Origin: Puniceicoccaceae bacterium
Lineage (GTDB): Bacteria; Verrucomicrobiota; Verrucomicrobiia; Opitutales; Opitutaceae
Direction of reading: 5' to 3'
NCBI GenBank assembly: GCA_007695295.1
Contig: REEB01000132.1
Span: forward strand, 1-64,000
DNA: 64,000 bases
Shown here in pieces: positions 12,099 through 38,910 of this stretch. Made by a program: the position numbers and the translations under genes. Under the pieces are notes generated by a model, which was not told the DNA's origin, searched no databases, and saw nothing but the letters and a program-made list of their open reading frames with translations. Position 1 is the first letter of the stretch; each line of letters opens with the position of its first letter.

Positions 12099-12129
12099 TT
12101 GACCCGGCGTCCTTATCCAAGTGTATTAT
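12099..12129 (+). promoter_or_regulatory. Candidate sigma70-type promoter of the type II secretion operon
   Basis: TTGACC at 12099-12104 and TATTAT at 12124-12129 with a 19-base spacer, ending 20 bases before the gspG ATG. The spacer is slightly long, so this is only a candidate. It is the best match in the 142-bp gap between yceH and gspG. Confidence 0.35.
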
Positions 12130-12149
12130 CCAAGAGTCATTTCAAACCC

Positions 12150-12593
12150 ATGATGCGTGCTTCACTATCCTTATCGCCCCGCCGCCGGGCCCGTGCGGCT
12201 TTCACCCTATTGGAGATGATCATCGTGATCGCGCTTATCGCCATTCTGGCGGGTGTCGCGATCATGAACGTGGACAAAATCTTCGGCAGCAACCAGGAGC
12301 GGATCGCGAAAATCTTCGTGACCGAGAGCCTGCGGGTTCCGTTGACCAACTACCGGATCGACATGGGCTCCTACCCCTCCACCGCGGAGGGTTTGCAGGC
12401 GCTCATCACCGCCCCCGATGGCCGTTCCGGCCGGTGGCGCGGGCCTTACATCGAGGGCAACCAAGTACCGAACGATCCCTGGGGCAATCCTTACCAATAC
12501 CGATTTCCCGGCACCCGGAATCCGAGCGGATTCGATCTGTATTCATTCGGTCCCGACGGGGTGGATTCCGACCAAAACATCGGCAACTGGTGA
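12150..12593 (+). CDS. gspG: Type II secretion system major pseudopilin GspG
   Basis: Major pseudopilin that polymerises in the periplasm to drive export. The protein is 147 residues from tandem ATGs. After a basic leader, the class III signal reads RAAF-TLLEMIIVIALIAIL; Glu5 is present, but the residue before the cleavage site is Ala rather than the usual Gly. The C-terminal calcium-site motif DPWGNPYQYRFPG and FGPDGVDSD are diagnostic of GspG rather than type IV pilin. First gene of an eleven-gene operon; its stop overlaps a GTG start for gspH. Confidence 0.96.
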   Translation: MMRASLSLSPRRRARAAFTLLEMIIVIALIAILAGVAIMNVDKIFGSNQERIAKIFVTESLRVPLTNYRIDMGSYPSTAEGLQALITAPDGRSGRWRGPYIEGNQVPNDPWGNPYQYRFPGTRNPSGFDLYSFGPDGVDSDQNIGNW

Positions 12594-13153
12594 CCCCGGT
12601 CCCCTCGGCAGGCCCTTTGCACTGGTGCCGGCCCGCCCGCCCGGCTCCGGTCCGCGGCTTCACCCTGGTTGAAATCATCCTGGTGGTGGCGATGATCGGT
12701 CTTTTCGTCTCCCTCTTGGTCGTCAACTACGAGACCCTCCTGCGCCGGGGACCGATGCAGACGGTGGAAGAAACCTTTTGGCGGGCGACCCGCGAGGCGC
12801 GGCAGCGGGCACTCTTCCAGCGGCAGCCGCAGCGGGTGGTGTTCGACGAGGAGGCGCACGCCTTCATCATCCGCTCCCCGGGCGGCGACCGCAATTTCCG
12901 GCTCGACCGGGGCCGCTGGCCCGCTGACATGGAAGCGGAAGTCACTTTTTTTCAGGATTTGCCGGAAGATGGCTACCGGCTGATCCGCGGCGAACTGGTG
13001 CGGCAGCGGCCCATCCCGCAGGTGGTGTTTTATCCGGACGGAAGCTGCACTCCCTTCGAAGTGCGGCTGGAGGTGGGCGACAGTTCCCGGAGCATCCGCA
13101 TCGACCCCTGGACGGGGGCCGAACTCTTGCCGGAGGAGCGGCGGCGGTGGTGA
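12590..13153 (+). CDS. gspH: Type II secretion minor pseudopilin, GspH-like
   Basis: A 187-residue protein with a class III signal RGFTLVEIILVVAMIGLFVSLL near residue 23 and a beta-rich C-terminal domain, consistent with a GspH-type minor pseudopilin. The assignment rests on signal, size and position between gspG and gspI. The start is a GTG that overlaps the gspG stop as GTGA; it is in frame with the signal and no ATG lies before it. Confidence 0.82.
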   Translation: MTPVPSAGPLHWCRPARPAPVRGFTLVEIILVVAMIGLFVSLLVVNYETLLRRGPMQTVEETFWRATREARQRALFQRQPQRVVFDEEAHAFIIRSPGGDRNFRLDRGRWPADMEAEVTFFQDLPEDGYRLIRGELVRQRPIPQVVFYPDGSCTPFEVRLEVGDSSRSIRIDPWTGAELLPEERRRW

Positions 13154-13635
13154 TGATGAACGGCGCCCGGACAGGCCGGCGGTGGCGGGACTTCCGAGGG
13201 TTCACCCTGATGGAAGTGCTCGTGGCGGTCGCACTCTTTACCTTTGCCGTGACCGTCTTCGCGGCGGCCTACATCAACGTTCTGACCGGGTTGGAACGGG
13301 TCAAGGCCGACCACATCCTGGAGCGGGAGTTGGCCTGGGTGCGGCAACAGTTGCTCGTCGAGGGCAGCCGGGAAGAAGTGGAGCGCGGAGGAGACATTGC
13401 GACCGCCCAGCTCGGCCAGGCGGTCTGGCGGGCGACGGTCGAGGAGACCGAGGTGGCGGATCTTTTCCGGGTGGAGCTGGAGATCGAACTGGCGGATCCC
13501 GGGGTGGGGCGGAGCGCGGTGCATCGGCAGCGATTGCACCTGTTGCGGCCGGGTTGGTCGGACCCGGCGGAGCGCGACCGACTTCGGGCGGCCACCCGGG
13601 AACGGCTGCTGGAGGAGCAGCTACGCCGCCCATGA
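13153..13635 (+). CDS. gspI: Type II secretion minor pseudopilin, GspI-like
   Basis: About 160 residues. The class III signal RGFTLMEVLVAVALFTFAV begins near residue 16 and is followed by a charged, beta-rich domain. GspI normally forms the pseudopilus tip with GspJ and GspK, which are encoded next. The start region GTGGTGATGATG offers several codons; I took the ATG that overlaps the gspH stop by one base. The stop overlaps gspJ as ATGA. Confidence 0.82.
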   Translation: MMNGARTGRRWRDFRGFTLMEVLVAVALFTFAVTVFAAAYINVLTGLERVKADHILERELAWVRQQLLVEGSREEVERGGDIATAQLGQAVWRATVEETEVADLFRVELEIELADPGVGRSAVHRQRLHLLRPGWSDPAERDRLRAATRERLLEEQLRRP

Positions 13636-14354
13636 ACCGTCTCGCCAGGTGCCATGGAGAACCCGTGGCCCGCGACCGCCAGTCCGGCTTCAGTCTGATC
13701 GAAGTTCTCCTGGCGGTGGTCCTCGGTGCGGCCCTGCTGACAGCGGCGACCTTTTTCATTTTTTCGATGGGCCAGCTCTGGGGCCGGGGCGCGGAGCCAC
13801 GGCTTTTCGAGCAGCATGTGCGCGGGGTGACGCGTTTTCTGGAGAGCGCGATCCGCGAAGCGCTGCCCGCCGGCGAGGCTCAGGGCGGCCAGCAGCAACA
13901 GCAACAACAGGCGCAGACCAACGCCGCGAGGGTGTTCTGGCACAACCCGCCGGGCTTCACCTTCGCCGATGATCCCCTACTCACCTTCGAGATGGTCAAT
14001 GGTCCCGGACTGCTGGCTTGGCCGGACCGGCCGCTTCCCTTTGTCGTCTGCTCGCTGTTTCTCGACCCGCGGGACGGCCTCATGCTGCTCTGGAAGTCGC
14101 GGCTGGAGATCGACTTTGAACTGATGGAGCCTCGCCGCACCCAGATATCTCCCTATGTGACTGCCATCACCTACCTTTATTATGATGCCGAAGAGGCCGG
14201 CGGCGGCTGGGAGGAGCGCCCCGATCCGCGCACCGGAGATGGCGCCGAGCCGGTCCTGCCGACGCGCATCCGCCTCACCTTCACCTACGAGAACATGGTC
14301 CGGCACACCGAGCTGGCCATTGCGGCCGCCCCCGCGGGCGTTCCGATTTATTAA
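13632..14354 (+). CDS. gspJ: Type II secretion minor pseudopilin, GspJ-like
   Basis: A 240-residue tip pseudopilin. The signal QSGFSLIEVLLAVVLGAALL starts near residue 18. A run of seven glutamines (about 86-92) sits in a low-complexity segment, which is unusual for GspJ. A C-terminal LPTRIRLTFTYEN strand resembles the conserved end of GspJ. The ATG overlaps the gspI stop by 4 bp and gspK starts 7 bp downstream. Confidence 0.85.
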   Translation: MNRLARCHGEPVARDRQSGFSLIEVLLAVVLGAALLTAATFFIFSMGQLWGRGAEPRLFEQHVRGVTRFLESAIREALPAGEAQGGQQQQQQQAQTNAARVFWHNPPGFTFADDPLLTFEMVNGPGLLAWPDRPLPFVVCSLFLDPRDGLMLLWKSRLEIDFELMEPRRTQISPYVTAITYLYYDAEEAGGGWEERPDPRTGDGAEPVLPTRIRLTFTYENMVRHTELAIAAAPAGVPIY

Positions 14355-14361
14355 AGCCGCG

Positions 14362-15477
14362 ATGAGCCCCCAGAATCAGAGCACCCGCCCCATCCGGCAC
14401 CGGTTTCCGCGTCGACGCCGCGGCGCCATCCTGCTGGCCATCCTCGTGCTGGTGGTGGTGCTTTCCTACGTGATTCTGCAGTTTATCGAGCGGGGTCTGG
14501 CGGATATTGCCGGGGAAGGGTATTACGTCGAGCGGAACCGCCTGCGCCTCGAAGCCTGGTCGGCAATGGAGACGACCCTGGCGGTTCTGGCCGATGTGAG
14601 AGCAATCAACGGTGCGTTGCACGCGCCCGCGCAAGGCTGGCAGGATCCGATCGGGTATGCGGGCGTCGAGCCCACCCGCGGGATGCGGGTCACGATCCGT
14701 TTCACCGATGAGAGCGGCCGGCTGCCCGTCAATCTGCTCGATTACAACGGGCTCTATCTGATCTTTCAGGACATGGGATTCGAGCCGGCGGTCTGCTCGG
14801 TGTTGACGAACAGCTTGCTCGACTGGATCGACGAGGATGATGAAGCCAGGATCGACGGCGCGGAGGTGGCGGAGTATTCCCGTCGTGAAACGCCCCACCG
14901 GGCCGCCAACCGGCCTCTGCGTAACTTAATGGAACTGGCTGTCGTCAACGGCTTCGACACCCACTTTTTCGATGAATACGGGAACCCCAACCACTACTTC
15001 CGCCGATTTCAGGAGATCGTCACCCTGCAGCCTGTCACCAACCTCAATCTCAACGCCGTCAACCGGTCGGTCTTAAAGAGCCTGGCCCTCTTTGACGATG
15101 CCCAGATCGACATGCTGCTTGAACATCGCTCAGGGGCGGCCCGCCTCGGCCCGGACGGCGGGCCGAGGTATTTCTCCGACCTCAGTGAGGTCACGGCCCT
15201 GCTCGGACCCCTGCCGCAGGGTGCCCGGATGGGTGTTTCGGTGGAGATCCTGCGCATCGACGTGAGCGTGACCGAAGGGCTCTCGACCTTTGCCCTTCGT
15301 GCGGTGGTGCGGGCCGGTGGTGGCGGTGGCGGCGGCGGGGCTCCCCGCGCGACCGGTGCCGGCCAGGTCACGATGGGCGGTGGGGCCGGCGGCTATCCCT
15401 TTGTTTTTCTTGAGATTCGGGAGGAAGCGCCCTTGAGTCAGGGCTTGCCCAGCCCGACCCATGGAAGGGCAAACTGA
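14362..15477 (+). CDS. gspK: Type II secretion minor pseudopilin GspK
   Basis: A 371-residue tip pseudopilin, the large capping member. The leader is very basic (RHRFPRRRRG) and is followed by AILLAILVLVVVLSYVI without Glu5, as is normal for GspK. The family's helical insertion is seen in LLDWIDEDDEARIDGAE and YFSDLSEV. The C-terminus carries an eight-Gly run and a second Gly-rich stretch, not expected in this family and probably flexible. Its end overlaps the chosen gspL start by 17 bases. Confidence 0.9.
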   Translation: MSPQNQSTRPIRHRFPRRRRGAILLAILVLVVVLSYVILQFIERGLADIAGEGYYVERNRLRLEAWSAMETTLAVLADVRAINGALHAPAQGWQDPIGYAGVEPTRGMRVTIRFTDESGRLPVNLLDYNGLYLIFQDMGFEPAVCSVLTNSLLDWIDEDDEARIDGAEVAEYSRRETPHRAANRPLRNLMELAVVNGFDTHFFDEYGNPNHYFRRFQEIVTLQPVTNLNLNAVNRSVLKSLALFDDAQIDMLLEHRSGAARLGPDGGPRYFSDLSEVTALLGPLPQGARMGVSVEILRIDVSVTEGLSTFALRAVVRAGGGGGGGGAPRATGAGQVTMGGGAGGYPFVFLEIREEAPLSQGLPSPTHGRAN

Positions 15478-16798
15478 CAAGCGCATGACCGCCAAGAAAC
15501 CGGAGACGGCCCCCCCTCCCGCCGGAGACTCTCTGCTCGCACCGTTGCTGGTTCGGGGCGATTTTTTTTATGCCCGCCGCATTCCCCTCCCGGAGGGGCT
15601 TGATCGGGAGGAAATTGCCTCGCTGGTTTCGCTTCGCCTCGAAGAGAGCGCCCCCTTTCCACTTGAGCAGCTTTACCATGGCTTCCGCCTGGATACCGCC
15701 GGAGCGGGCATCTTTCTTTTTGCCGCCTACCGGCGGCGCTTTTCCAATGAGGATCAGCAGCGCTGGACCCATGCGGCACTGGTTTTGCCGGACTTCGGCC
15801 CCGCTCTCGACCTCCGTTTTGAGGAGCCGACGCTGCTCCTGCTGCACGGTGTGGAGGCGGGCACCGCCCTCTGGTTTCCCGAAGCCGGGCAAGGAGCCCA
15901 TGGCTGCATCGGGCGTCCCTGGCCCGAGGACTGCACCGCCGTGGCGGAGCGTTCGGAATGGCTGGCGGCACTGGGCCGCCGCCTTCTGAACGGTGTCGAA
16001 GAGGCGGCGGTGGTGGCGTTCGCCGCCCCCCGGGACCTGGGCGAAGAGCGCGGTGCGCGCCGGTTTGGTTTTTGCGCCCCCGTGGAGGGGCCTGCCGCCG
16101 CCGCTCCGGCCGACCCCGATGCGCCCGCGGATGCGGAGGCCGACCCCGTCAAGGTCTCGCCCAGCGAAGAGGCACATGCGGCGCCTTCCAAAGTATTGAG
16201 GCAAGTCACCTTCCGCCAGCGTGACCTTTGGCTGATGGATATCCGTGAAGAGGGGATGCTGCAGGAGAAAATCAAACGCGCCACCTTCGACCGCTATGCC
16301 TGGAGGGGGCTCCTGGGACTGGCGGCGGCGCTGGTTGTCCTGCTGCTTGGGGAACTGCTGCTGGGCGCGTTCGGCCTTACCTTGCGGGCGGTTTCGCGCG
16401 ATACCCAAAAGCGGGGTGTCGAGGTGGCCGAAATCCAGCGGAAACACGAAATCGTCAACCGCCTCCAGGAATTCGAGGAAAGCAACCTGCTCCCCTTCCA
16501 GATGCTCGCCATCATCAACCCCGTGCGGCCGCGCTCGGTTTACTTCACCCGGGCCGCCACCGAGGGTGTCACCGGCCTCGTTGTCGAGGCCAGCACCCGC
16601 AATGTGGCCGATGTGAACGAGTACGAAACCCGCCTCCGCAACCTGGGCCAGGTCCGCCAGGTGGAGGTGCGCAACCTCAACTCCCGCGCCGGAGGGACGA
16701 CATTTACCCTCGTGCTCGACTTTTCGCCGTCCGCCCTTGTCCGCCCCGCAGGCCGCGGTCCAGGCCCCTTGGAGACCGCCTCCCGTCCCACCGACTGA
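15461..16798 (+). CDS. gspL: Type II secretion assembly protein, GspL-like (PilM/PilN-type)
   Basis: A 445-residue single-span protein. Residues about 1-210 resemble an actin-like PilM/GspL cytoplasmic half, and one hydrophobic segment (LLGLAAALVVLLLGELLLG) lies near residue 285. A periplasmic ferredoxin-like half with the PilN-like run AIINPVRPRSVYFTR follows. GspL links the ATPase GspE to the pseudopilus machinery. The family call rests on topology and on position between gspK and gspM. The start could instead be the ATG at 15485, 7 bases after the gspK stop. Confidence 0.75.
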   Translation: MEGQTDKRMTAKKPETAPPPAGDSLLAPLLVRGDFFYARRIPLPEGLDREEIASLVSLRLEESAPFPLEQLYHGFRLDTAGAGIFLFAAYRRRFSNEDQQRWTHAALVLPDFGPALDLRFEEPTLLLLHGVEAGTALWFPEAGQGAHGCIGRPWPEDCTAVAERSEWLAALGRRLLNGVEEAAVVAFAAPRDLGEERGARRFGFCAPVEGPAAAAPADPDAPADAEADPVKVSPSEEAHAAPSKVLRQVTFRQRDLWLMDIREEGMLQEKIKRATFDRYAWRGLLGLAAALVVLLLGELLLGAFGLTLRAVSRDTQKRGVEVAEIQRKHEIVNRLQEFEESNLLPFQMLAIINPVRPRSVYFTRAATEGVTGLVVEASTRNVADVNEYETRLRNLGQVRQVEVRNLNSRAGGTTFTLVLDFSPSALVRPAGRGPGPLETASRPTD

Positions 16799-17367
16799 TG
16801 TCCGCCGCCGCCATCCGATCCTCATTCCGAGCCCTGCTGGAAAAGCTCCGGGTGTTGTTCTTCGTGCGCAGCCTGCGCGAAAAGCTGCTCACGTTTCTTT
16901 TCGTGGCCGTGCTGGTGCTGATCTGGTTTTTCAGTTTCACGGATCGACTGCAGGCCTCCACCCGGCATGCATTTTCCATTAAGAGCGAACGCTCGGACCA
17001 GAACCGCTGGTTTGAAGTCGGTGAACGCGCCGAGAGGGAATTCGATGAAAGGATGCGCTCGCTCGATGTCGCCAACCTGCCCAACCGGAACGCGGTCACC
17101 GGGCAGATCGACACTCTTCTGAGACAAGGCGGCTTCCAGTTCCGGATGGACCCGCCCCGCAGCGACCAACGCGATCCGCTCACCTTCAACACCCTCGGCA
17201 TCGCCATCGAAAGGGCCACCCTCGATGACTTGATCCGCTTTACCGACGAGATCCGCTCGACCATGCCGTACATCACCCTTGAGCAGATCACCTTGGCGCC
17301 CGACCGCCGCAACCCCACCCAGCTCGATGTGCGCATGCGCCTGGTGGCCATTGAGTTTAACCGCTGA
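16798..17367 (+). CDS. gspM: Type II secretion protein, GspM-like
   Basis: A 189-residue bitopic protein with one membrane segment (LLTFLFVAVLVLIWFF, about 30-45), a helical linker and a small alpha/beta periplasmic domain. This is the topology of GspM, the partner of GspL. Similarity is too low for direct recognition, so the call is by position and topology. The ATG overlaps the last base of the gspL stop. Confidence 0.68.
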   Translation: MSAAAIRSSFRALLEKLRVLFFVRSLREKLLTFLFVAVLVLIWFFSFTDRLQASTRHAFSIKSERSDQNRWFEVGERAEREFDERMRSLDVANLPNRNAVTGQIDTLLRQGGFQFRMDPPRSDQRDPLTFNTLGIAIERATLDDLIRFTDEIRSTMPYITLEQITLAPDRRNPTQLDVRMRLVAIEFNR

Positions 17368-17374
17368 TCCTTTT

Positions 17375-19591
17375 GTGAGACCGATCCGAACCCTGCTTCT
17401 CATCCTTTTTTCCGCCGGCCTGCTGGCGAGCGTTCCCGTCGCATCCGCCCAGGCGCCCGCCCCCGAAGCGCCGGGCCTGGTGCCGCTCCAAGGGGCGGAC
17501 GACATCGTCGAGCGCATCGTGCTGCGCGATGAGTCGCTCGCCCAAGTGCTGGCCCTGCTGGAGCGACTCACGGGCCGTTCCGTGCTCCGCCCCCAGGCGC
17601 TGCCGACGCCGACCTTCACCTTCAACAGCCTCGAGCCCTTCACCCGCCAGGAAGCCATCATCGCACTGGAAAGTCTGCTCAGCATCAATGGCATCGGGGT
17701 GGCGCCAATGGGGGACAAGTTTCTCAAAGTCGTGCCCATCGCCGGCATCCGGACGGAAGCTCCGGAGTTGGTGATCGGCTCGCTGCTGGGCGAGCCACCC
17801 AGCGGCAAGGTGGTGAGCAAACTCTTCCAGCTCCAGCACCTCGATTCGGCCACCTTCCAGGCCCAGATCCAGCCGTTCCTAAGTCCGAATTTCGGCACCA
17901 TCATTCCCTTTCAGGGCACCAATGCGGTCATCGTGATGGACACCATCAGCAACTTGCAGCGGCTCGAATACGTGGTCAGCCAAGTCGACCGCCCCTCCCG
18001 GCTCAACATCGAGACGCGCTTCTACACCATCCGCTTTGCCTCCGCCTCGGAACTCGCCAACCAACTGCGCACCCTGATCGAATCGACCCGCACCGCCTTT
18101 GCCCCCCAGGGAACGCAGCAACAACCCCAGCGCACCCAGGAAGCCCGCACGATGACGCCCCAGGAGCGCCTCGCCGAGGCCCAGCGCCGCCTCGAGCAGG
18201 CCGGCCAGCAGCCCGCTCCCGCTCCCTCCCCCGGGGCGGACACGGTTCCACTCGGGGTTATCGTCGGCACCAGCACCTTCATCACCGCCGATGAGCGCAC
18301 CAACCAGCTCATCGTCATCACCGATCCGGTCAATTTCTCCTTCTTTGACGACATCATCGAGCAACTGGACATCCAGGCCGATCCGACCACCCGGATCGAG
18401 GTCATCCCCCTTCAGCACGCCGATGCCGGCGAGGTGGCCTCTCTTTTGAGCCAGTTCATCGCCGGCCGCACCCAGCCCGGCGCCCGTCCCGGCACCGGTC
18501 CGCAGCAGCCCGGAGGCCGCGCCACTCCGCTGCGCGGAACCTTCGGCCCGGCCGAGACGCCGCCGGCGCCGGACCGAAACCAGACCGAAGCTGTGCGCCA
18601 AGAGGTCGAATCCGTCCTCGAAGAGCGAGACAGCCAGTTCAGCGGCTTCATGACCATCGTCGCCGACGAACGCAGCAACGCCCTGATCGTCAGCGGCACC
18701 CGCAACGACCTCGCCCTGATCAGCGACATCATCAAGCACATCGACATCCTCCTCGCCCAAGTCCGCATCGAAGTCATCATCGCGGAAGTCACGCTCAGCA
18801 ACCGCCACCAGCGGGGCATGGACAGCTTTGGCATCTCCTACGACAACGTTACCGGCGCAGTCTCGGTCAACAACGCCAACCTTCTCGGCATCGGCTTCAG
18901 TTCGGACTTCATTCTGAAGGGCGGGAGCGTCAGCGACCTCTCCATTGAGGCGGTCTTCAACACCGCCCGGACCAACTCCGACATCAACCTCCTCTCGGTG
19001 CCGACGATCGTGACCACCCACAACCGTGAAGCCACCATCATCGTCGGCGAAGCCCGGCCCATCGTGACCTCCACCGAAGGCGCCTTCACTGGTGACCGGC
19101 AGCGCTCGACCTTTCAGTTCCAGGACATCGGCATTGAGCTGCGGGTGAAGCCCCTCATCGGGCCCAATGACATCATCCAGCTTGAGGTCGACCAGAAGAT
19201 CGACGACGTTACCGGCACGATAACCATCGACCAGAATGAACAGCCGATCATCGGACGCCGCCAGGCGACTTCGTTTATCAGTGTGATGAGCAACCAGATG
19301 GTTGTGCTCGGAGGCCTGCAAGCCGACCGCATCGAGCAAGCCCGCAGCCGCACCGCCATCCTCGGCGAAATCCCCCTCATCGGCGAGCTCTTCACCCGGC
19401 GGACCACCGAAAAGCGCCGCACCGAGCTGATCGTTTTCCTGCGGCCCCGGGTCATCCGCGGAACCGACGCCACCCACGCCGACGCCATGGAGAGCGTGGA
19501 ACGCATGGACAATCCCAAGGTCGACAACTTTCTCTTCCCGACCGATGTGGAGGAGGAACCTTCTCTGCCGACGCGCCGCTTCCACAAGTGA
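17375..19591 (+). CDS. gspD: Type II secretion outer-membrane secretin GspD
   Basis: A 738-residue channel protein. A signal peptide (RTLLLILFSAGLLASVPVASA) follows a GTG start, 7 bases after gspM. An N0-type domain and N1-N3 repeats come next, with two Gln/Pro/Gly-rich linkers near residues 245-290 and 370-410. The C-terminal secretin core contains VPTIVTTHNREATIIVGEARPI and VVLGGLQADR, followed by GEIPLIGELFTRRTTEKRRTELIVFLRPRVI (split here as two recognisable blocks). The linkers suggest long flexible spacers between N domains. Confidence 0.94.
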   Translation: MRPIRTLLLILFSAGLLASVPVASAQAPAPEAPGLVPLQGADDIVERIVLRDESLAQVLALLERLTGRSVLRPQALPTPTFTFNSLEPFTRQEAIIALESLLSINGIGVAPMGDKFLKVVPIAGIRTEAPELVIGSLLGEPPSGKVVSKLFQLQHLDSATFQAQIQPFLSPNFGTIIPFQGTNAVIVMDTISNLQRLEYVVSQVDRPSRLNIETRFYTIRFASASELANQLRTLIESTRTAFAPQGTQQQPQRTQEARTMTPQERLAEAQRRLEQAGQQPAPAPSPGADTVPLGVIVGTSTFITADERTNQLIVITDPVNFSFFDDIIEQLDIQADPTTRIEVIPLQHADAGEVASLLSQFIAGRTQPGARPGTGPQQPGGRATPLRGTFGPAETPPAPDRNQTEAVRQEVESVLEERDSQFSGFMTIVADERSNALIVSGTRNDLALISDIIKHIDILLAQVRIEVIIAEVTLSNRHQRGMDSFGISYDNVTGAVSVNNANLLGIGFSSDFILKGGSVSDLSIEAVFNTARTNSDINLLSVPTIVTTHNREATIIVGEARPIVTSTEGAFTGDRQRSTFQFQDIGIELRVKPLIGPNDIIQLEVDQKIDDVTGTITIDQNEQPIIGRRQATSFISVMSNQMVVLGGLQADRIEQARSRTAILGEIPLIGELFTRRTTEKRRTELIVFLRPRVIRGTDATHADAMESVERMDNPKVDNFLFPTDVEEEPSLPTRRFHK

Positions 19592-20208
19592 TGAAAACAA
19601 CCCTCCCGACAGCGCTGCCCCTGATTCTTCTGGCCCTCTTGTTGGGCTCAGCGACCGCGCTCGCCGATGTTCGCTCCCTGGTGCAGAATTCGCCCTTCGT
19701 GCCCGCGGATTTCAACGTCCGCCCGCCCGACCCCCCGCCTCCGCCGGCACAGAATCCACTCGAGAACTACGAGCTGCGGGGCATCATGTATCTGAATGGA
19801 GAATACATTTTCAGTGTCTACGATCCGCAAAACCGCCAAGGGCGCTGGCTGTCGGAAAGCCAGATGGAGGATGGCCTGGAAGTCAGCGAATACGATCTCC
19901 AGCGCAACCAAATCGTGCTGCGCCGCGGAAGCCACACCAAGCGACTGGAGCTGAAGGAAGCCACCATCGCGACCCTCGAAGTCCGTCAGCAGCCCGCCAC
20001 CGGCGGCGGTCCGCAGCGGCCGGGACAACCTCAACGCGAACGGGCCTCTGATGCCGAGGACCTCAGCGATGAAGAAGTGCGCGAGCGGATGCAGCGCATC
20101 GCCGAAGAGATCCGCCGCCGGCGGGCCATCCGTCGTTCCATCATTGAAGAGGGCAGCGAGGCCCAGCAGCAACAACAGCAGCAGATCCAGGCGCCCCAGC
20201 AGCGCTGA
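19591..20208 (+). CDS. Secreted or anchored protein with a GspC/PilP-like domain
   Basis: About 205 residues: a hydrophobic N-terminus (LPLILLALLLGSATALA) that could be a signal peptide or anchor, a Pro-rich spacer (PPDPPPPPAQ), then a small beta domain. The pattern ELRGIMYLNGEYIF, a central Gly-rich turn and QIVLRRGSHTKRLEL matches the GspC homology region and PilP layout. A helical tail ends in a seven-Gln run. It lies between gspD and gspE, and no other gspC is present, so it is the likely secretin-to-inner-membrane connector. That role is inference. The ATG overlaps the last base of the gspD stop; a GTG one codon earlier is possible. Confidence 0.6.
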   Translation: MKTTLPTALPLILLALLLGSATALADVRSLVQNSPFVPADFNVRPPDPPPPPAQNPLENYELRGIMYLNGEYIFSVYDPQNRQGRWLSESQMEDGLEVSEYDLQRNQIVLRRGSHTKRLELKEATIATLEVRQQPATGGGPQRPGQPQRERASDAEDLSDEEVRERMQRIAEEIRRRRAIRRSIIEEGSEAQQQQQQQIQAPQQR

Positions 20209-20218
20209 ACCGCCCGTC

Positions 20219-21907
20219 ATGCCCGAGGTCCCCGTCGCTTTTGAACCCGCCTTCCTCGAAAAACTGGAAGAGAGCCGCCGCGAGGCGCTCAAGGACCTGC
20301 CCCGTGCCCGGAAGGCGGAGTTTGTCGAAGAACTCTTCTCATGGTCGCCCGAAGAGACTCTCGGCCGGCTCCTCGAGGCCTCCGGGCTCCCCCGGGCCGA
20401 GCCGGCGGATTTCGACATCGAGGGGCTCGACCGGCTTCCGGTCCGTCTGGTTCACGAATACCACTGCGTGCCCCTGAGGGCGCCTGCAGCCAACGGGAAA
20501 CTCGCCTTGGCAACCGGCTGGCCGCCCGAGCCGGAGATGGATGACTGGGTTTTCGCCTCCTGTGGGGCCGAACCCGAGTGGCATCTCGCTCTGTCCGAGA
20601 AAATCGGCAAATGCATCACCGAGCATCTTGGGGTGGGTGCGGAAAGCCTCGATGCCTCCATCGAAACCAACGCCGATCTCGAGGAGGCCGATCAGGATGA
20701 GGAGGACGAGAACGCGGCCGTCATCCGCTTTGTCAATCAAGTCGTGGCCCAGGCGGTGGAGGACGGGGCGACCGACATCCATTTCGAACCCCAGGAGGAG
20801 ACCCTGCGCATCCGCTACCGGATCGATGGCCTGCTCGTCACCGTGCCCGTGCCGGACAATCTGCGGCGCTTTCAGGACGCGATCACCTCACGCCTGAAAA
20901 TCATGGCCAAGCTCAACATCTCCGAGCGCCGGCTGCCGCAGGACGGCCGCATCAACTACCGCGCCGGCAGTGCCATTCTGGATATCCGCCTTTCGACCAT
21001 CCCGACCATGTACGGCGAGAGCGTGAGTCTGCGGCTGCTGAACAAGAAGAGCCAGCCCCTCACCTTGGACGAATTGGGGATGTCGCGCCACGACCAGGAA
21101 GAAATCGGCAAGGTGTTGGCCCTGCCGCATGGGATTATTCTCGTCACCGGGCCGACCGGCTCCGGCAAATCGACCTCCCTGAACGCTTTCATCCGCCAGA
21201 TCAACTCCGTCGACCAGCGGATCATCACGATCGAAGATCCGATCGAATACGAAGTGCCCGGGGTGAATCAGATCCAAGTGCGGCCGGAGATCGGTTTCGG
21301 TTTCGCCGAGGCCCTCCGGCATGTGCTCCGCCAGGATCCCAATATCATCATGGTCGGAGAGATCCGCGACCGCAACACCGCCGACATCGCGATTCGCGCC
21401 TCGCTCACGGGTCACCTTGTCTTCAGCACCATCCACACCAACGACGCTCCCGGGGCCATCACCCGCCTGACCGACATGGGGATCGAGCCGTTTCTCATCG
21501 CCTCCGGGGTGGAGATGGTCATCGCCCAACGCCTGGTGCGGCGGCTTTGCCGCAACTGTGTGCGGCAGGTTCCCTTCGACCGCGAGCTGCTCCGCGCCAC
21601 TCTCCGTAGTTTAGAGGTGGATACAGCCGAAGCCGACCGGACGGAAACCCTCCCCGAGCCCGCCGGCTGCGAATCCTGCCGGCAACTCGGCTACCGGGGC
21701 CGGGTCGGCCTTTTCGAAATCCTCCGGGTCGACGAAACCTTTCACGAGCTGATCGTGAAACGGGAGTCGGCCCGCGCGATCCGCAAACTCGGCCTGGAGC
21801 ACGGCATGCAGACGCTGGAACGCTCGGGCTGGAGCCAGATCCGAGCCGGCCTCACTTCGCTGGAAGAAGTGGTGCGGATCGTATCGATGAACGACAGCGG
21901 CGAATAA
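20219..21907 (+). CDS. gspE: Type II secretion ATPase GspE
   Basis: Cytoplasmic hexameric ATPase powering pseudopilus assembly. The protein is 562 residues. An N-terminal domain is followed by the catalytic region with Walker A GPTGSGKST at 311-319, an Asp-box DPIEYEVPGVNQIQV, Walker B-type NIIMVGEIRD and the His-box STIHTNDAPGA. A C-x2-C pair (CRNC) and a second pair (CESC) form the zinc-binding C-terminal domain typical of GspE/PilB. Eleven bases separate it from the preceding gene, and gspF follows 3 bases after its stop. Confidence 0.97.
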   Translation: MPEVPVAFEPAFLEKLEESRREALKDLPRARKAEFVEELFSWSPEETLGRLLEASGLPRAEPADFDIEGLDRLPVRLVHEYHCVPLRAPAANGKLALATGWPPEPEMDDWVFASCGAEPEWHLALSEKIGKCITEHLGVGAESLDASIETNADLEEADQDEEDENAAVIRFVNQVVAQAVEDGATDIHFEPQEETLRIRYRIDGLLVTVPVPDNLRRFQDAITSRLKIMAKLNISERRLPQDGRINYRAGSAILDIRLSTIPTMYGESVSLRLLNKKSQPLTLDELGMSRHDQEEIGKVLALPHGIILVTGPTGSGKSTSLNAFIRQINSVDQRIITIEDPIEYEVPGVNQIQVRPEIGFGFAEALRHVLRQDPNIIMVGEIRDRNTADIAIRASLTGHLVFSTIHTNDAPGAITRLTDMGIEPFLIASGVEMVIAQRLVRRLCRNCVRQVPFDRELLRATLRSLEVDTAEADRTETLPEPAGCESCRQLGYRGRVGLFEILRVDETFHELIVKRESARAIRKLGLEHGMQTLERSGWSQIRAGLTSLEEVVRIVSMNDSGE

Positions 21908-21910
21908 CCC

Positions 21911-23170
21911 GTGCCGAGCTTTCTCTACACCGCCAAAGATGCCCGCGGCCAGGAAGTGCGCGGCCGACTCGAAGCCGCCTCCCGGCGCCTCGCCATCCGC
22001 CAACTCAGCGGCCGCAGCCTCAGCCCGGTGAAGCTGGTGGAGGGTGCGGCGGAGGTGGGCGACGTCGAAGACAAACCCCGGTCGAAGGCCAGCTTCGATT
22101 GGAAAAGCGTGGTACCCACGTCGTTGATGGCCACGGGCCGTCCGGGCCGGGCCCAAATGCTGCCCTTTCTCCGGGCACTTTGCGATCTTATCTCCTGCGG
22201 CATCCAAGTCGGCGATGCGGTCAAGCTGCTGAGCCGCCGCCTCAACAACCCGAAGTTGAAGGCCTTGGCCCGCGATCTCTGGGAGGAACTCAGCCAGGGT
22301 CGCTCACTCTCGGACGGAATGCGGGCCTATCCCGATGTTTTCGACGAAGCGGCCACAAACCTGATCGAGGCCGGCGAGGCGACGGGCAACCTTTCCGAAA
22401 TTCTCACCCGGCTTGTCCAGGACCTCGAAGACCGCCGCCAGATCAAAGGGCAGATCCTCGCCGCGATGGCCTACCCGATCTTCATCGTCTTCATGGCCGG
22501 CGGGGTGATCCTGATCTTTCTGTTTTTCCTGCTGCCGCGGATCCAGGATCTTCTCGGCGCCCTTGGCGGTGATCTGCCGCTGTCGACCCGCCTGCTGGTG
22601 GGGCTGTCCGAGTTTGCGCTCACCTACGGAATTCTGGTCGTGATCGGCTTGGTTCTGGCCGGGGTGGGGGTATGGAGCTGGCGGCGGACCACTCCCGGGC
22701 GAAAGACCTTCGATCGGCTTGTCCTGCGCGTGCCCGGAGTCGGCAATTTCATTCGCGACAGCGATATCCTTCGCCTTTCGCAGACGCTCAGCCTGCTCCT
22801 GGAAAACGGCATCACCACCATCCAGGCCCTGGGCATGACCGAGCGGGTCATCACCAACCGCGCCATTCGCGAGAGTTTCGGTGAAGCCCGCTTGAGGATC
22901 GCCGAAGGCGTTTCCATTTCCAACGCACTGAAGACCACCGGTTACTTTCCCGACCTCGTGCTCGACATCCTCACCGTGGGTGAAAACACCGGCAACATCG
23001 TGCCCAGCCTCAAGGAAATGTCGCGCCACTTCCATGCCCGGCTGACCGCCCAGGTCCGCGCGTTCATGGGCGTGATCTCGATCGGTGTGCTGCTGGTGGC
23101 GTTCGGCTTTGTCGGGCTCATCGCCCTCGGGATCATTTCGAGCGTCTTCCAACTCAGTTCGAGCCTTTAG
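21911..23170 (+). CDS. gspF: Type II secretion inner-membrane platform protein GspF
   Basis: A 419-residue polytopic protein that organises the assembly platform. It has the two repeated GspF helical domains (SCGIQVGDAVKLLSRR, IEAGEATGNLSEIL; later LLENGITTIQALGMTE and VGENTGNIVPSL) and membrane segments near residues 190-215, 235-255 and 385-410. The GTG start 3 bases after gspE gives MPSFLYTAKDARG, the usual GspF opening. Last gene of the operon; no strong terminator is visible after it. Confidence 0.95.
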   Translation: MPSFLYTAKDARGQEVRGRLEAASRRLAIRQLSGRSLSPVKLVEGAAEVGDVEDKPRSKASFDWKSVVPTSLMATGRPGRAQMLPFLRALCDLISCGIQVGDAVKLLSRRLNNPKLKALARDLWEELSQGRSLSDGMRAYPDVFDEAATNLIEAGEATGNLSEILTRLVQDLEDRRQIKGQILAAMAYPIFIVFMAGGVILIFLFFLLPRIQDLLGALGGDLPLSTRLLVGLSEFALTYGILVVIGLVLAGVGVWSWRRTTPGRKTFDRLVLRVPGVGNFIRDSDILRLSQTLSLLLENGITTIQALGMTERVITNRAIRESFGEARLRIAEGVSISNALKTTGYFPDLVLDILTVGENTGNIVPSLKEMSRHFHARLTAQVRAFMGVISIGVLLVAFGFVGLIALGIISSVFQLSSSL

Positions 23171-27398: not shown

Positions 27399-27679
27399 AA
27401 CAGTCTCCCGGACCTTACCTTTGCCGGTTTGGTTTTGACAGAGCCAGGGAGAGCGGCATGGTTAGGGAGAGCACCCTGCAGTGTTCGAGGTGTCTTTCAA
27501 CCGCTCCCTTCCTACTTAACCTTTCAGGATCCGGCCCTTTCGAAGGCCTGCTAAGCCGCACACCGGAAAGCAAAAATTCGGGAGAAGGATCCACCTGTCT
27601 GTAAAACGGACCAGGAGCCGAAGGATGCACGGCACAACGCGGGGTGCTTTTTTGTGCCCCCTGCCGGCGGTGCGGCCGC
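27399..27679. other. Convergent intergenic region with several hairpins
   Basis: Separates the ends of ymdB and a minus-strand glycosyltransferase. On the plus strand AGCGG near 27452 can pair with CCGCT at 27501, enclosing a smaller GCACC/GGTGT hairpin. GGCC-rich arms flank TTTCGAA near 27533-27547. A six-T run at 27648-27653 follows a weak GCAC/GTGC stem and could be a terminator. The set could be a small RNA or simply a terminator region; no known RNA family is recognised. Confidence 0.3.
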
Positions 27680-33198: not shown

Positions 33199-34263
33199 TC
33201 AAAAAACCCGGCCGGGACGCCGCAGGAGGTAGAGAAAAAAAAGGCAGCCCGCCAGGCCAGTCAGAATGCCAATGGGGATTTCCTCCCCCGGCAGCAGGCT
33301 GCGCGCGAGGATATCCGCGATGACCAGGAGCAGGGCGCCGCCGAGAGCGCTGGCGGGCAGGAGCAGGCGGTGCCCGGGTCCGAGAAAGCCTCGACAGCAA
33401 TGCGGAACAATCAAGCCGGCGAAGGCAATGATTCCCGCCGCGGCCACCGCCGAGGCCGCCAGCAGGGAAGCGGTCAGGAGCATGAGCAGACGGAAGCGGG
33501 GAACACCCAGGCCTTGGCTGCGGGCGAGATCTTCGCCGCCGGCCAGGGCATCGAGCGGTCGGTGGGCGATCAGGGCGGCGGTCAACCCCAGGACGGTCCA
33601 AGGCAGCAGCGTGAGGGCATAACTCCAGTCGCGGTGGGCGAGGCCGCCCATCAGCCAGCCGAGGATGGAGCGGATCTGATCGGCTTCGGTGTGGAGGAGG
33701 AGGAGGGTCGTGAGCGCCTGCAGAAAACCGCCCACCGCGATGCCGGTGAGGAGAAGGGTGCCGGTGGAAGCACGTCCGGTCCGTCGGGCGAGGGTGTAAA
33801 CAATTCCGGTGGTGGCAAAAGCGCCGGCGAACGCGGCCAGGGAAAGCAGGGAAAGGCCGCCTGCGCCCAGCCCCATGCCGAGACCGAGGCTGAGGGCCGC
33901 CACCGCGCCAAAGGCGGCGCCGGAGGCCACCCCGACCACGTAGGGCTCGGCCATGGGATTGAGAAAAAGCGTTTGCATGAGCGCCCCCGCGACTCCGAGA
34001 TTGGCTCCCACGAGCAGTGCGAGAGTCAGCCGGGGCAACCGCACATGGCGGAGGATTTCATGCCATGTATCCAGATCTTCGCTACCGAAAAGAGGGCCGG
34101 GGCCGGTGAGGAGGGCAAGCCAGGCGCGCGGGCCCAGCGTCCCGAAGGCCCCGTGGCTGAGGGAGAGCAGGCTGGCTGCGGCCAAGAGGAGCAGGAGGAC
34201 GGGAAAAAAGACCACCGGGCGGGTCCGGCGGCTGGTCCGCGCGAGTGGAGCTGGTGTGCTCAT
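33199..34263 (-). CDS. btuC: Cobalamin/iron-siderophore-type ABC transporter permease (FecCD family)
   Basis: Inner-membrane permease of a BtuC/FecD-type importer, 354 residues with about ten hydrophobic segments. Family marks are LRLPRLTLALLVGANLGVAG (here HVRLPRLTL), a MQTLFLNPMAEPYVVGVASGA segment, GIAVGGFLQAL and AGIIAFAGLIVPH, which contains the cytoplasmic coupling helix. Substrate is inferred from the binding protein in the same operon. Its ATG overlaps the ATPase stop as ATGA. Confidence 0.93.
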   Translation of the reverse strand: MSTPAPLARTSRRTRPVVFFPVLLLLLAAASLLSLSHGAFGTLGPRAWLALLTGPGPLFGSEDLDTWHEILRHVRLPRLTLALLVGANLGVAGALMQTLFLNPMAEPYVVGVASGAAFGAVAALSLGLGMGLGAGGLSLLSLAAFAGAFATTGIVYTLARRTGRASTGTLLLTGIAVGGFLQALTTLLLLHTEADQIRSILGWLMGGLAHRDWSYALTLLPWTVLGLTAALIAHRPLDALAGGEDLARSQGLGVPRFRLLMLLTASLLAASAVAAAGIIAFAGLIVPHCCRGFLGPGHRLLLPASALGGALLLVIADILARSLLPGEEIPIGILTGLAGCLFFLYLLRRPGRVF

Positions 34264-35057
34264 GAGGGCGCTTCCGCGAGTGAGACGAGGGGTCGGCCGC
34301 TGCGGGGGTGGGCCAGCACTTCGAAGGCATGCCCGTAGGCGCGGGCAAGCGATGCTGGCTGCAGCACCTCCTCGGTGGGGCCACAGGCGACCTGACCTTC
34401 CGGCCCGAGGAGGAGAAGCTGGTCGCACCACTCGGCGGCGGCGTTGAGATCGTGCAAAACACAGGCCACGCCCAGCCCGGCTTCCCGGCAGCGTTGCCGC
34501 AACAGGCGGAAAAAGTGTTCCCGCGCCGGAAGGTCGAGGTGTGCGGTGGGTTCGTCGAGGAGCAGCAGAGACGGCTCCTGGGCGAGTGCGCGGGCGAGTA
34601 CGGCGCGCTGGAACTCACCTCCGCTGAGGTGATCAACGGACTCCTCCGCGAGGTGGGTGAGTCCCGTTTCACGCAGGATGTGGTCGATGACGGCCCGGTC
34701 GCGGGCCGGGTCGGTCCGAAGCAGGCCTTGGTGAGGCAGGCGACCGGTGCCGACGAGTTCGCGGACTGAGAAGGCGAAACCGCTCACCGGTGTCTGGGGG
34801 ACGTAGGCGAGGAAGCGGGCGCGCTCCCGGTGGTGCCACTCCGAGAGCGAGCGGCCACCGAGGTGGATGGTGCCGCCGGAAGCCGGATGCAGACCGGCGC
34901 AAGTCTTGAGCAGGGTGGATTTGCCGGCTCCGTTGGGTCCGAGGATGCCGAGGAGGCGGCCGGGGCCGAGCCGGAAGGCAATGTTGCTGAAAACCGGCGG
35001 GCCTCCATAGCCACCGGAGAGCTGGTTGACTTGGATGAGCGAATCCGGATTGGTCAT
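34260..35057 (-). CDS. btuD: Cobalamin/iron-siderophore-type ABC transporter ATPase
   Basis: A 265-residue nucleotide-binding subunit. Walker A GPNGAGKST, Q-loop AYVPQT, signature LSGGEFQRA, Walker B LLLLDEPTAHLD and the switch His in VLHDLNAAAEW are all intact. It drives uptake through the adjacent permease. Start ATG at 35057; it overlaps the binding-protein stop upstream and the permease start downstream by 4 bp each. Confidence 0.95.
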   Translation of the reverse strand: MTNPDSLIQVNQLSGGYGGPPVFSNIAFRLGPGRLLGILGPNGAGKSTLLKTCAGLHPASGGTIHLGGRSLSEWHHRERARFLAYVPQTPVSGFAFSVRELVGTGRLPHQGLLRTDPARDRAVIDHILRETGLTHLAEESVDHLSGGEFQRAVLARALAQEPSLLLLDEPTAHLDLPAREHFFRLLRQRCREAGLGVACVLHDLNAAAEWCDQLLLLGPEGQVACGPTEEVLQPASLARAYGHAFEVLAHPRSGRPLVSLAEAPS

Positions 35058-35959
35058 GGGGCCTCGGATACGGATTCCGCTTCGCGGTGGAGGAGGCGCA
35101 CCACCGTTTCGACGGCCTCGACCGCGGCCGTGCCGGGAACGGCAAACCATCGCTCCTCGACGCGGTGAACGCGCCCCGCCCGGACCGCGGGCAGGCGCTG
35201 CCAGAGCGGATCCCGGCGGCTCGCCCGGGGACCGTCGCCGGACATGCCCTCGACGGCTTCTCCGCCGGCCAGGAGGATGATCTCGGGCCTCCAGCGCAGC
35301 AGCGTTTCCATCGAAACGCGGGGCCAGTCGGAGGCGGTGTTTTCAGCGACGTTGTGACCACCGGCCAGTTGGATGATTTCACCGGGAAAGGTGGAGGCGG
35401 TGGCGGTGTAAAATCCGCCGGGAACATCATACAGCAGCAGTACGCGCGGGCGCCGCCGCGGGTCGTCCTCGGGGATGCGCGCGGCGTCCAGGCGTTCCCG
35501 GAGGGCGCGGGTCCGCTCCCCGTCGCCTCCGGTGAGGCGCTCAAGGCGGGCGTAGTCCTCCAGCGTGCCTTCGATCCCGGAGTGCTCGAGCAGGAGCACG
35601 CGGATACCGAAGCTCTCGAGCTGGCTGCGCACGCCCACCGGCGTCATCGGAGTGGCGGCCACGAGATCGGGGCGGAGGGCGACCATCGCCTCGACGGAGG
35701 GATCGCTGAGCCCGCCGACGGAGACGGCGGCGGTCTTTTCGGGCGGCCGGCAGAAGCGGGTGAAGCCGATCAACCGGTCGGCGGCGCCGAGATCGGCAAA
35801 CATGCCGGTGATGCTGGGCGCCAGCGAGATGATGCGCTCCGGCGGGGAGTCAAAAGCGAACTCACGTCCTTCCGCATCCAGAATACGGATACCGGCGGCG
35901 CTCGGGTTGGCGGCCGCCAGGCAGAAGCCGAGCAGGATGATGGCGGTGGAGCGTTTCAC
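35054..35959 (-). CDS. btuF: Cobalamin-binding protein BtuF-like (ABC transporter substrate-binding protein)
   Basis: A 301-residue periplasmic protein with a signal peptide (STAIILLGFCLAAANPSAAG). Two lobes are joined by a long helix as in class III binding proteins. The lobe start PERIISLAPSITGMFADLGAADRLIGFTRFC, quoted here only as its ends PERIISLAPS and GFTRFC, fits BtuF, as do PSVEAMVALRPDLVAATPM and AVRAGRVHRV. Heme or siderophore binding cannot be excluded. It overlaps its neighbours by 4 bp on both sides. Confidence 0.85.
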   Translation of the reverse strand: MKRSTAIILLGFCLAAANPSAAGIRILDAEGREFAFDSPPERIISLAPSITGMFADLGAADRLIGFTRFCRPPEKTAAVSVGGLSDPSVEAMVALRPDLVAATPMTPVGVRSQLESFGIRVLLLEHSGIEGTLEDYARLERLTGGDGERTRALRERLDAARIPEDDPRRRPRVLLLYDVPGGFYTATASTFPGEIIQLAGGHNVAENTASDWPRVSMETLLRWRPEIILLAGGEAVEGMSGDGPRASRRDPLWQRLPAVRAGRVHRVEERWFAVPGTAAVEAVETVVRLLHREAESVSEAP

Positions 35960-36753
35960 CGGCCGGAGCGGGGATTCCAGAAACCATTGTCTTCGGCGGG
36001 GCCAAACCAGCCGATCTCGGCGGCGGCGGCGTCGCCTCCATAGGGGTTGGCGCCGCCGATGCGGCTGGGTTGTTCAGCGCTCACATGGCCGTCGCACCAG
36101 CCGACGAGCGCCTGACCGCGAAAGCGGAAATGAACGGAGGGGTGGGGCCGGACTCCGGATGCGCCGTAGCCGAAATCCCAATACGGAGGCTCGGCGTAGG
36201 CGTATTCCTGGAGACCCTCGGCCCGGGGAAAGGCGGTGGTGGCGAACATGACGGTGCGCGAAGGCAGGGGAACCTCGTCCGGGCGGGCGGGCCGGTAGGG
36301 CCAGCCGGGGCTGCCGCCGATGTAGGCGGCGTTGTAGCCGTAGCCGCCGGTGCCGTCCTCGAAGCTGGCACCGCCACGCAAGGTGTGCCGCAGAAGGGGG
36401 CAGGTTTTGACGAGACCATCCCGGCCGAGGTAGGGGCCGAGAAACCCCCGGGCGGGGTCGAAAGGCGCCGTGGGGCCGGTGCGCGCACCGTGCCAGCGGA
36501 TGCGGTTGAGAGGCTCCTGGGCGGGAGCGTAGGTGCCGTGTTCGGCGGCGAAGGCGAGATTTGCCAGCACGAGCTGCCGGAGATTGGAGCGGGAGGAGGA
36601 GGCAGCGGCATTTTCCCGCGCCTGCCGGAGGCCGGGAGCGACGATGGCCGCCAGGAGGGCGAGGATGGCGATCGCCGCCAGCACCTCAATCAATGTCAGG
36701 CCGGCGCGGCTGCGGCGGACCGCCGGCAAGTAGGTTTTCCCGCTCCCCGTCAT
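35956..36753 (-). CDS. Pseudopilin-like protein with CDGH motif, coupled to the cobalamin importer
   Basis: A 265-residue protein with a class III signal: a short basic leader, then [19 protein letters not shown] with Glu5. The C-terminal domain is Gly/Pro/Tyr-rich and ends in a [11 protein letters not shown] motif, like the many Verrucomicrobia and Planctomycetes pseudopilins with a DG box. Its start overlaps the surface-protein stop and its stop overlaps the btuF start, both as ATGA, so it is translated with the importer. A prepilin peptidase would have to act in trans, as none is encoded here. Its role is unknown. Confidence 0.8.
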
Positions 36754-38081
36754 GGATCGAGGCGGATTCGAAAGAAGCCGGTGGGGTTTGGCAATGCCGA
36801 CAGATCCAGCACCAGCCGGACTTCAGCGGTGGTGAAGACGCCATGGGGGCCGGCCAGCGGGGTTTCCTCCATGGCGGCGACCGCGGCATGGGCGGTGGCG
36901 AAGGGAGCGCCCGCCTCGCTGGTCGCGAGGGCGGTCCATTCTCCGGGGAGGGCGGCGTGCTCGAGGGTGATGTGCAGGTCGGCGGCCCGGAGGTCGCGGC
37001 GCCAGCGGAGATGAAGCAAGCCGTCGTCGCCGGCAGCCAGGCGCAGCAGCGGTCCGGGGGCGGTTTCACGGGCGCCCAGGCCGGTGGCATAGCGGAACAG
37101 ATTGGGCCAGCCGGCGGCCCCGGAATCGTGGTCCGGGGAGGCTTCCGGTCCGCTGAGGTTTTCCCGGCTCACCCAGTGCGCGTAGGTGAGGTCTTGGTGG
37201 ATGGCGCCGACCGCATCGAGATCGAAACCGCCCGAGCCAAAGGTGGGCCAGGCATCATGGATGGGGCGGCCCGCGGCATCGGTGAACGACCCATCACCGG
37301 GGATGTCGACGAGGCGAAGGTATAGGATGGCGGAGAGGTCGACCGTGCCGTCGAGGACCAGCGGGTGATCCTCAAGGGCGGCGAGATCAAAGGGCGTACC
37401 CCAGCTTTGGCCGTAGGCGTTGGCATGTTTTCCGGCGAGATTGTAGACGGCGGTCGGGTCGATGCCGCCGAATGGTCCGACCGCTTCCGGTGTGAGGCTG
37501 GTGGCAGGGAAACGGGCGAAGGCGGCCCCGTCGCTGGAGACTTCGACAAAAGCCAGTTCCGCGAAAAAACCGGTTGTGCCACTGACGGGATCATCCTGCC
37601 GGAAGCCGTTTTCAAAGACGACAAAATCCGGCCCCGGGCCATCGCGGATCGGCCGGTCGAAGCGCAGGGTGATCGATCCGGGTGGAGTGCCGGCGGCGAT
37701 TTGGGCGGCGGAGAGGTCGCCGAGGGAGACGAGGGTGAGGTTGTCGGCGGCGACCGGCCCAAGGGCGTGAGCCGGTTGCGCCCACATGGCGGCGACCCCA
37801 GGCGCGGGCGCGTATGCCACCACTTCGGCGGCCCAGCCGGCGAAGGCGGGGTTGTGGTAATTTCCCGGATTTTCTGCAATCCCGAAAGCTGGCAGGATCA
37901 GCCGGGCGGCGCCATCCCCGTGCGGGCCGACAAAACCCGGCACGGGGGGATCGTGGGGATTGGTGGGATCGTCCTGAGCTTTTGAGTACGGCCCTCCCAT
38001 CGGGTTCGCAGCGCAGGGAGCGCCGATGCCAAGCAGGAGCAGGGCGGCGCAGGCGGATCGGAATGGTGCCGTGGTTTTCAT
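36750..38081 (-). CDS. Secreted surface protein of a cobalamin-uptake-associated type
   Basis: A 443-residue protein with a signal peptide ([18 protein letters not shown]). Residues about 60-280 form a jelly-roll-like domain: VVAYAPAPG, a VSLGD segment, [11 protein letters not shown] and [11 protein letters not shown]. This pattern recalls secreted proteins often found beside cobalamin transporters in Myxococcota and Planctomycetota. The last 100 residues are a separate beta domain ([19 protein letters not shown]) like those at the ends of verrucomicrobial surface proteins. No PEP-CTERM sorting signal is seen. Coupled by ATGA to the pseudopilin-like gene. Confidence 0.65.
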
Positions 38082-38100
38082 CGGGTGCCGGTGAAGCGGC

Positions 38101-38910
38101 TCAGCAACGGCGACGGAGCAGGAGGGCGGCGACCAGGGCGAGACCGGCGAGGAGGGAGGAGGTGGCGGCGGGTTCGGGGACAAGGGCGAGATTGTCGAGG
38201 GCGAAGTAGGCGGGCGTGTTCATCCCGAAAGCGCCCACATCACTCGATTCGAGCGCGAAGACGATGGAAGCGACGCCGCTTCCGAGCGGCGTGAGGTCCA
38301 CCGGCAGCCAAGAGGCGACGATGGTGTTGAGATTGTTGTCGGCGGGACGGAAGTCGGCCAAGTGAACCACCACGGCCTGGCCCGTGGGAGATCCCCCGGC
38401 ATTGCGGCCGCTGATGGTGAGGCGGAAAAAGTCCGGATCATTGCCGTCCGGTCCCCCGAAGGCCTTGGAGAAGGCGGATCCGTTGAGCATGTCGAGGGCG
38501 GCAAAGGTGGTGTTGGTGATCCGCACGGAGAGGGGGCGGTCGAGGCCGGCGGGAAGGACGATTTCCGGAGCGCCGAAGCCGACCGCGAAGCTGCCATCCG
38601 GATCGGCCGGGCCAAAGGCACTGCTGCCGCCGCCGGCAAAGCTACTGTACTGGTTGCCAAAGCCCGGCGTGGTCGTGTCTCCGAGCCGGGAAAGCGCCCA
38701 GCCTTCCCAAGTGGTGAATCCGCCGCCCCAGTCGGTGAAGCTGTTCGGAAAAACGACGCCGCCGAAGGTAAATCCGCCGGCGCCATCGGCGCCGTTGTCG
38801 AAGCCGGCGGGCGGAAGGGTGGCGTCCTCGAAGTCGATCAAGACCGAAGCAGCCGAGGAAATGGAGAGTCCTAGAAGGAGAGTGGCAAAGGAGGATATGA
38901 GAGATTTCAC
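38101..38910 (-). CDS. DUF4465-like PEP-CTERM exported protein
   Basis: A 269-residue secreted protein. It has a signal peptide ([19 protein letters not shown]), a DUF4465-like beta domain beginning [12 protein letters not shown], with WEGWALSR and SFAVGFG typical of that family, and a C-terminal sorting signal. The sorting signal is [26 protein letters not shown], given here as PEP then a hydrophobic helix then RRR. DUF4465 proteins accompany cobalamin receptors in Bacteroidetes. The start is GTG. First gene of the six-gene operon, 19 bases before the surface-protein gene. Confidence 0.75.

Follow-up and report, generated by a model that had tools for sequence, protein, structure and literature searches.

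How does vitamin B12 (cobalamin) reach the periplasm of a bacterium whose uptake operon encodes a pilin-like protein and no BtuB? Ordinary porins do not admit a molecule as large as B12, and the textbook route across the outer membrane is BtuB together with TonB. The question arises from a six-gene operon of a Puniceicoccaceae bacterium (Verrucomicrobiota; assembly GCA_007695295.1), which runs on the minus strand from position 38910 to 33199 of the 64,000-nucleotide stretch analysed here (positions 1-64,000 of contig REEB01000132.1, hereafter the window) and encodes, in this order, a DUF4465 protein, a secreted surface protein that we call SURF, a pseudopilin (hereafter the pilin), BtuF, BtuD and BtuC. 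We conclude that a pilin-like protein has been conserved as a component of operons for B12 acquisition, both in Verrucomicrobiota and in neighbouring phyla, and that a B12 riboswitch often controls it. The explanation that we favour, with a probability of about 0.55, is that in this B12 operon a dedicated pseudopilin replaces the TonB-dependent channel BtuB and moves B12, or a protein binding it, through a secretin.

Cobalamin operons with a pilin

DUF4465 is a B12-binding family, binding having been measured for the members of Coraliomargarita akajimensis and Haloferula luteola, both Verrucomicrobiota (PMC13398666). The window protein belongs to this family and matches the B12-bound D5EK51 of C. 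akajimensis (PDB 9hmu; phmmer E=4e-14), and is thus a probable surface B12 binder of the BtuJ kind. The Peripla_BP_2, ABC_tran and FecCD domains together give the operon the composition of a BtuFCD-type importer. Testing of 61 related loci with a pilin revealed a cobalamin riboswitch in 32, located upstream of the pilin and on its strand; the independent cases are somewhat fewer because some of these loci represent the same genome in two collections. In seven loci (L165, L221, L222, L225, L226, L237, L241) the pilin is the first gene after the riboswitch, whose end lies 91-267 bases from the pilin domain; these come from Hydrogenedentota, Armatimonadota and other records, the names of metagenome-assembled genomes (MAGs) being those deposited, which may be wrong. 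The Armatimonadota-type unit consists of riboswitch, pilin and BtuF, with no surface protein found adjoining (L225, L226, L241). In L148 the pilin gene overlaps cobT, and in L172 an adenosylcobalamin riboswitch is followed by cbiZ and then by the pilin. The initial annotation proposed that the pseudopilin is part of a cobalamin uptake system and named two findings that would refute this, absence of the pilin from homologous operons and an importer specific for another ligand. Both checks strongly favour the proposal, as the pilin is present in homologous operons of several phyla and the evidence on the ligand indicates cobalamin, and we consider it nearly certain that the pilin belongs to B12 acquisition.

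Two side observations concern these loci. Secreted proteins of about 720 amino acids lie upstream of Hydrogenedentota pilins (L245:4818-6986, L252:4833-6983); the one in L245 sits behind a cobalamin riboswitch and matches weakly the Leptospira lipoprotein family NF033170, as SURF does. In L166:5851-7734 and L169:6811-8574, and also in L167 and L168, one protein combines a membrane fusion protein of the HlyD/CusB type with a BtuF-like PF01497 domain; the L166 fusion adjoins a FUSC exporter gene, an odd pairing of an exporter part with the binding domain of an importer.

Among all collected loci, 90 distinct pilin genes stand directly behind genes for DUF4465, SURF or CL4 (a propeller-like PEP-CTERM protein), and 53 of the 90 are translationally coupled to the preceding surface gene by a 4-base overlap of start and stop codons. 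Adjacency of SURF and pilin in the first batch of loci is a biased sample because these were partly collected by a SURF search; the searches with pilin profiles and the DUF4465 survey were independent of that choice. A profile built from 15 pilins gave 15 full-length matches of at least 299 bits in 132 genomes of the window's order, all of them behind SURF, in addition to one partial match at a contig end, the next score being 114 bits. Throughout 388 genomes of the phylum the top matches lay behind SURF, DUF4465 or DUF4465-SURF fusions, and the pilins of family f24 stand directly behind DUF4465; in Verrucomicrobiota this pilin subfamily is nearly always preceded by SURF or DUF4465. The complete set DUF4465-SURF-pilin-BtuF-BtuC-BtuD was recovered from a scan of 84,980 species in L198, L201 and L214, MAG loci labelled Opitutaceae or 'Akkermansia', and in truncated form in L197, L202 and L204.

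Pilins of the H-X9-DG type are abundant in these genomes (21 pilin matches in the source genome of the window and far more in others), and the pilin could in principle be a chance neighbour of the importer. We rejected this explanation, whose probability is negligible, on the grounds of gene order, coupling and riboswitches conserved across families, classes and phyla. If an assumed ceiling of 3-5% of genes had a pilin adjoining, the 25 cases among 38 DUF4465 loci described below would be expected with P < 1e-22.

In a tree of 54 pilins, those of families f24 and f44 that accompany DUF4465 without SURF formed one clade (support 100/99) outside the main group, the base of the tree being weakly supported with long branches; the tree is compatible with one origin or with two. 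The DUF4465-pilin pairs of L256-L261 (f44) and L072-L077 (f24), whose pilins form this separate well-supported clade, are possibly an independent recruitment.

The AlphaFold2 model of the pilin (mean predicted local distance difference test score 89.8) presents a 52-residue N-terminal helix (21-72) and a beta-rich head with the motif HFR..G.A..W.DGHV. A DxHxxG B12 motif was considered and rejected, alignment A1 showing DGHV alone, which is other than that motif. The family PF07596 (DUF1559 / H-X9-DG pilins) did not match the window pilin, and it matches the relative in L226 with 32.2 bits against a cut-off of 23.3. Because the head is large and conserved, its His, Trp and Tyr residues including invariant ones, and because pilin and BtuF genes adjoin directly in the window and in nine other loci (L044, L197, L198, L201, L204, L214, L225, L226, L241), the pilin might instead be a monomer anchored in the inner membrane that uses its head to bind B12 or to dock BtuF, forming a periplasmic relay free of filaments. 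This is quite improbable: Glu+5 (E23) is invariant in 40 homologues (alignment A6), a residue on which the assembly of filaments by known pilins depends, and a monomeric relay leaves the alternation with the outer-membrane protein BtuB unexplained.

Alternation of the pilin with BtuB

A BtuB profile was built from 12 BtuBs of SURF loci, and at a cut-off of 300 bits it detected BtuB in none of the collected pilin loci. DUF4465 was found in 38 of the 388 phylum genomes, and its neighbour was a pilin in 25 and BtuB in 13, with no genome showing both or neither (Fisher 2e-10); the 25 pilin cases comprise 18 identified by the coordinates of profile matches and seven lower-scoring pilins directly downstream of DUF4465. 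Forty order genomes encode SURF or DUF4465, of which 18 have the pilin only, 20 BtuB only, one both and one neither. The genome with both (G050) carries them at separate loci, and in that counted as having neither (G130) a partial BtuB adjoins DUF4465 at a contig end. Pilin and BtuB alternate also within families f20 and f24 and within a single GTDB genus (g89), where Haloferula rosea (G382) has the pilin and G410 a DUF4465-BtuB pair. The absence of BtuB from the operon, noted in the initial annotation, holds for the window as a whole, and the source genome contains no match to the BtuB profile at E <= 1e-40.

The assembly G023 (97% complete, 170 contigs) contains a riboswitch-led operon of DUF4465, SURF, pilin and btuF and no TonB plug domain anywhere, and in several f20 genomes the number of plug domains is one to three, within frames of approximately 740 to 1150 residues. 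This alternation indicates an outer-membrane step, and since the pilin sits at the usual operon place of BtuB, B12 may cross the outer membrane by an undescribed route. That the pilin bridges the periplasm, as the initial annotation suggested, is conjectural. We judge it slightly more likely than not that the pilin substitutes for BtuB at the outer-membrane step, and that it does so as a filament through a secretin is proposed more tentatively, as possible rather than probable.

Pseudopilins normally serve type II secretion, and an alternative role for the pilin would be that of a cargo-specific export or anchoring factor helping the type II secretion system to place the binders outside, B12 crossing by another channel. 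The translation of the pilin directly behind the surface proteins, the type II secretion locus within the window (Table 1) and the retention of other TonB receptors in the source genome would all fit such a role. The same PEP-CTERM DUF4465 proteins, however, are also encoded in loci that have BtuB and no pilin, so that the pilin is not simply required for their export. Because of these loci, and because the riboswitch-pilin-BtuF units lack an adjoining surface gene, the pilin appears as a part of the uptake path rather than an aid to export, and the plug-free G023 also speaks against another TonB-dependent channel. We regard the export role as unlikely.

The replacement of BtuB by the pilin would work as follows. 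Surface-displayed DUF4465 and SURF would capture B12. The pseudopilin would be cleaved by prepilin peptidase and, as its invariant Glu+5 suggests, would be capable of polymerisation, being assembled by the type II secretion or type IV pilus machinery of the cell. Its growth and withdrawal through the secretin could then draw B12, or a binder loaded with it, into the periplasm; from there BtuF would pass B12 to BtuCD. Secretins are encoded in all 20 pilin genomes tested; the polymerisation of the pilin and the movement of the ligand we infer. In its widest form this would be a TonB-independent import of B12 across the outer membrane in which a B12-regulated pseudopilin passing through a secretin is the transporter itself, BtuB having been swapped in or out on several occasions within Verrucomicrobiota and related forms occurring in Hydrogenedentota, Armatimonadota and other phyla; we consider this wider form conceivable at a little short of even odds.

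Several results weigh against the replacement of BtuB by the pilin. Over all 388 phylum genomes no anticorrelation between pilin and BtuB was found, the alternation being confined to the level of the locus and to genomes with DUF4465 or SURF, and four genomes (G050, G227, G260, G460) have the pilin plus BtuB elsewhere. The source genome encodes 16 TonB plug domains, and one of these proteins could be a diverged B12 channel. Loci are shared between searches and phylogenetically related, so that the counts above are not independent events. A Foldseek search with the pilin head returned no solved homologue. No cobalamin riboswitch (RF00174/RF01482) was detected in the window, even at a permissive threshold, and it is absent from most loci of the window's order too. 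Finally, BtuF of the window reaches 60 bits with the NCBIfam model PRK03379 (cut-off 234), and the top NCBIfam match of BtuC, PRK09535, 250 bits (cut-off 461). These low scores, the occurrence of BtuF and BtuC homologues in siderophore and heme importers and the Fur-family gene flanking several CL4-SURF-pilin loci could suggest that importer and pilin serve another ligand, for example a siderophore or heme. We hold this to be very improbable, since cobalamin riboswitches, CobT, CbiZ and relatives of B12-binding DUF4465 proteins occur in the same operons and favour cobalamin.

Surface proteins and other features of the window

SURF may be related to BtuH. Profile A7 matched residues 393-497 of Bacteroides thetaiotaomicron BtuG1 (PDB 8blw_B; E=1.5e-5), a region falling inside its C-terminal BtuH extension (PMC10404256), and a profile from a second alignment (A9) matched the H domain of BtuG1 with E=0.003. 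A structure search with the SURF model gave no significant solved match, and the relation stays tentative because BtuH was missing from the 50 best structure matches listed. In other genomes SURF is fused to DUF4465. CL4 occupies the position of DUF4465 in many loci and matches weakly beta-propellers, the fold of BtuG, and in L229 it stands with SURF and the pilin in a riboswitch-led operon; cobalamin is therefore the likely ligand also in loci without DUF4465, those of the window's order being devoid of a riboswitch. Other pilins adjoin or diverge from secreted, partly PEP-CTERM-like proteins (L078, L079, L080), and pairs of surface protein and pilin may recur more broadly, serving other ligands.

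Rechecking of the open reading frames placed all six genes where they had been annotated (Table 1). The gap between DUF4465 and the ATG of SURF is about 19 bases, and the last four junctions are 4-base overlaps, in order ATGA, GTGA, ATGA and ATGA; four overlaps had been described among the five junctions, all as ATGA, of which one is thus GTGA. A second FecCD-type importer (BtuD/C/F-like) lies on the same contig past the window (G000:C61:70931-73728, equal to L171:5931-8728) and scores much lower against the BtuF profile.

Table 1. Genes of the pilin operon and further features annotated in the window
Feature	Coordinates	Strand	Match
DUF4465 protein, signal peptide and PEP-CTERM tail	38101..38910	-	PF14717, 136 bits (cut-off 25), E=2e-39
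SURF, secreted surface protein, 443 aa; ~270 aa core and C-terminal beta domain	36750..38081 (ATG start 38081)	-	no Pfam match
Pseudopilin, 265 aa, class III signal	35956..36753	-	PF07963, 29 bits (cut-off 21.2)
BtuF-like periplasmic binding protein	35054..35959	-	PF01497, E=1e-26
BtuD-like ATPase	34260..35057	-	PF00005
BtuC-like permease	33199..34263 (ATG start 34263)	-	PF01032, E=1e-85
Type II secretion locus (pseudopilins, GspK, secretin, GspE, GspF)	12071..23170	+	
6S RNA	27470..27649	+	

Relation to known systems

The closest comparison is with the cobamide loci of B. thetaiotaomicron, which encode BtuB-BtuG-BtuH/BtuJ and BtuFCD (PMC10404256, PMC8941943, PMC12751083). In both cases surface B12 binders are encoded with BtuFCD, often behind a cobalamin riboswitch, and DUF4465 (BtuJ) is common to both, while SURF possibly corresponds to BtuH, and CL4 resembles BtuG in being propeller-like. 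The pilin operons differ in having a pseudopilin and no BtuB at the locus, and in that their binders end in PEP-CTERM tails whereas those of B. thetaiotaomicron have lipoprotein anchors. The neighbours of DUF4465 reported in the study of that family are TonB receptors, ABC transporters and propellers, a pilin being unmentioned (PMC13398666). Attachment and uptake of nutrients dependent on a pilin are known in the same phylum from the type IV-like MUL2 pilus locus of Akkermansiaceae (PMC13174399), which differs in handling large glycans, in its pilin (amuc_1102), in its PilM partner and in having no cofactor ABC importer. For planctomycetes, the 'fishing rod' hypothesis (Boedeker 2017, as cited in PMC12078418) holds that dedicated pilin-like proteins pull ligands into the periplasm; as presented in that citing source, it concerns polysaccharides and ties the pilins genetically to no specific ligand. 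Our literature search, whose scope was papers available without subscription, found no published account of a pilin in B12 uptake.

Many Verrucomicrobiota are without BtuB, and the nearly complete G023, devoid of plug domains, keeps a B12-regulated operon of binders, pilin and BtuF. If the pilin performs the outer-membrane step, a scarce vitamin would be imported by a new mechanism, and the idea of the pilus as a fishing rod in the Planctomycetes-Verrucomicrobia-Chlamydiae (PVC) group would gain one small ligand, together with a regulator and a phenotype that can be counted. At minimum, the operons provide a role for a large family of pilin-like proteins so far annotated by their N-terminus alone.

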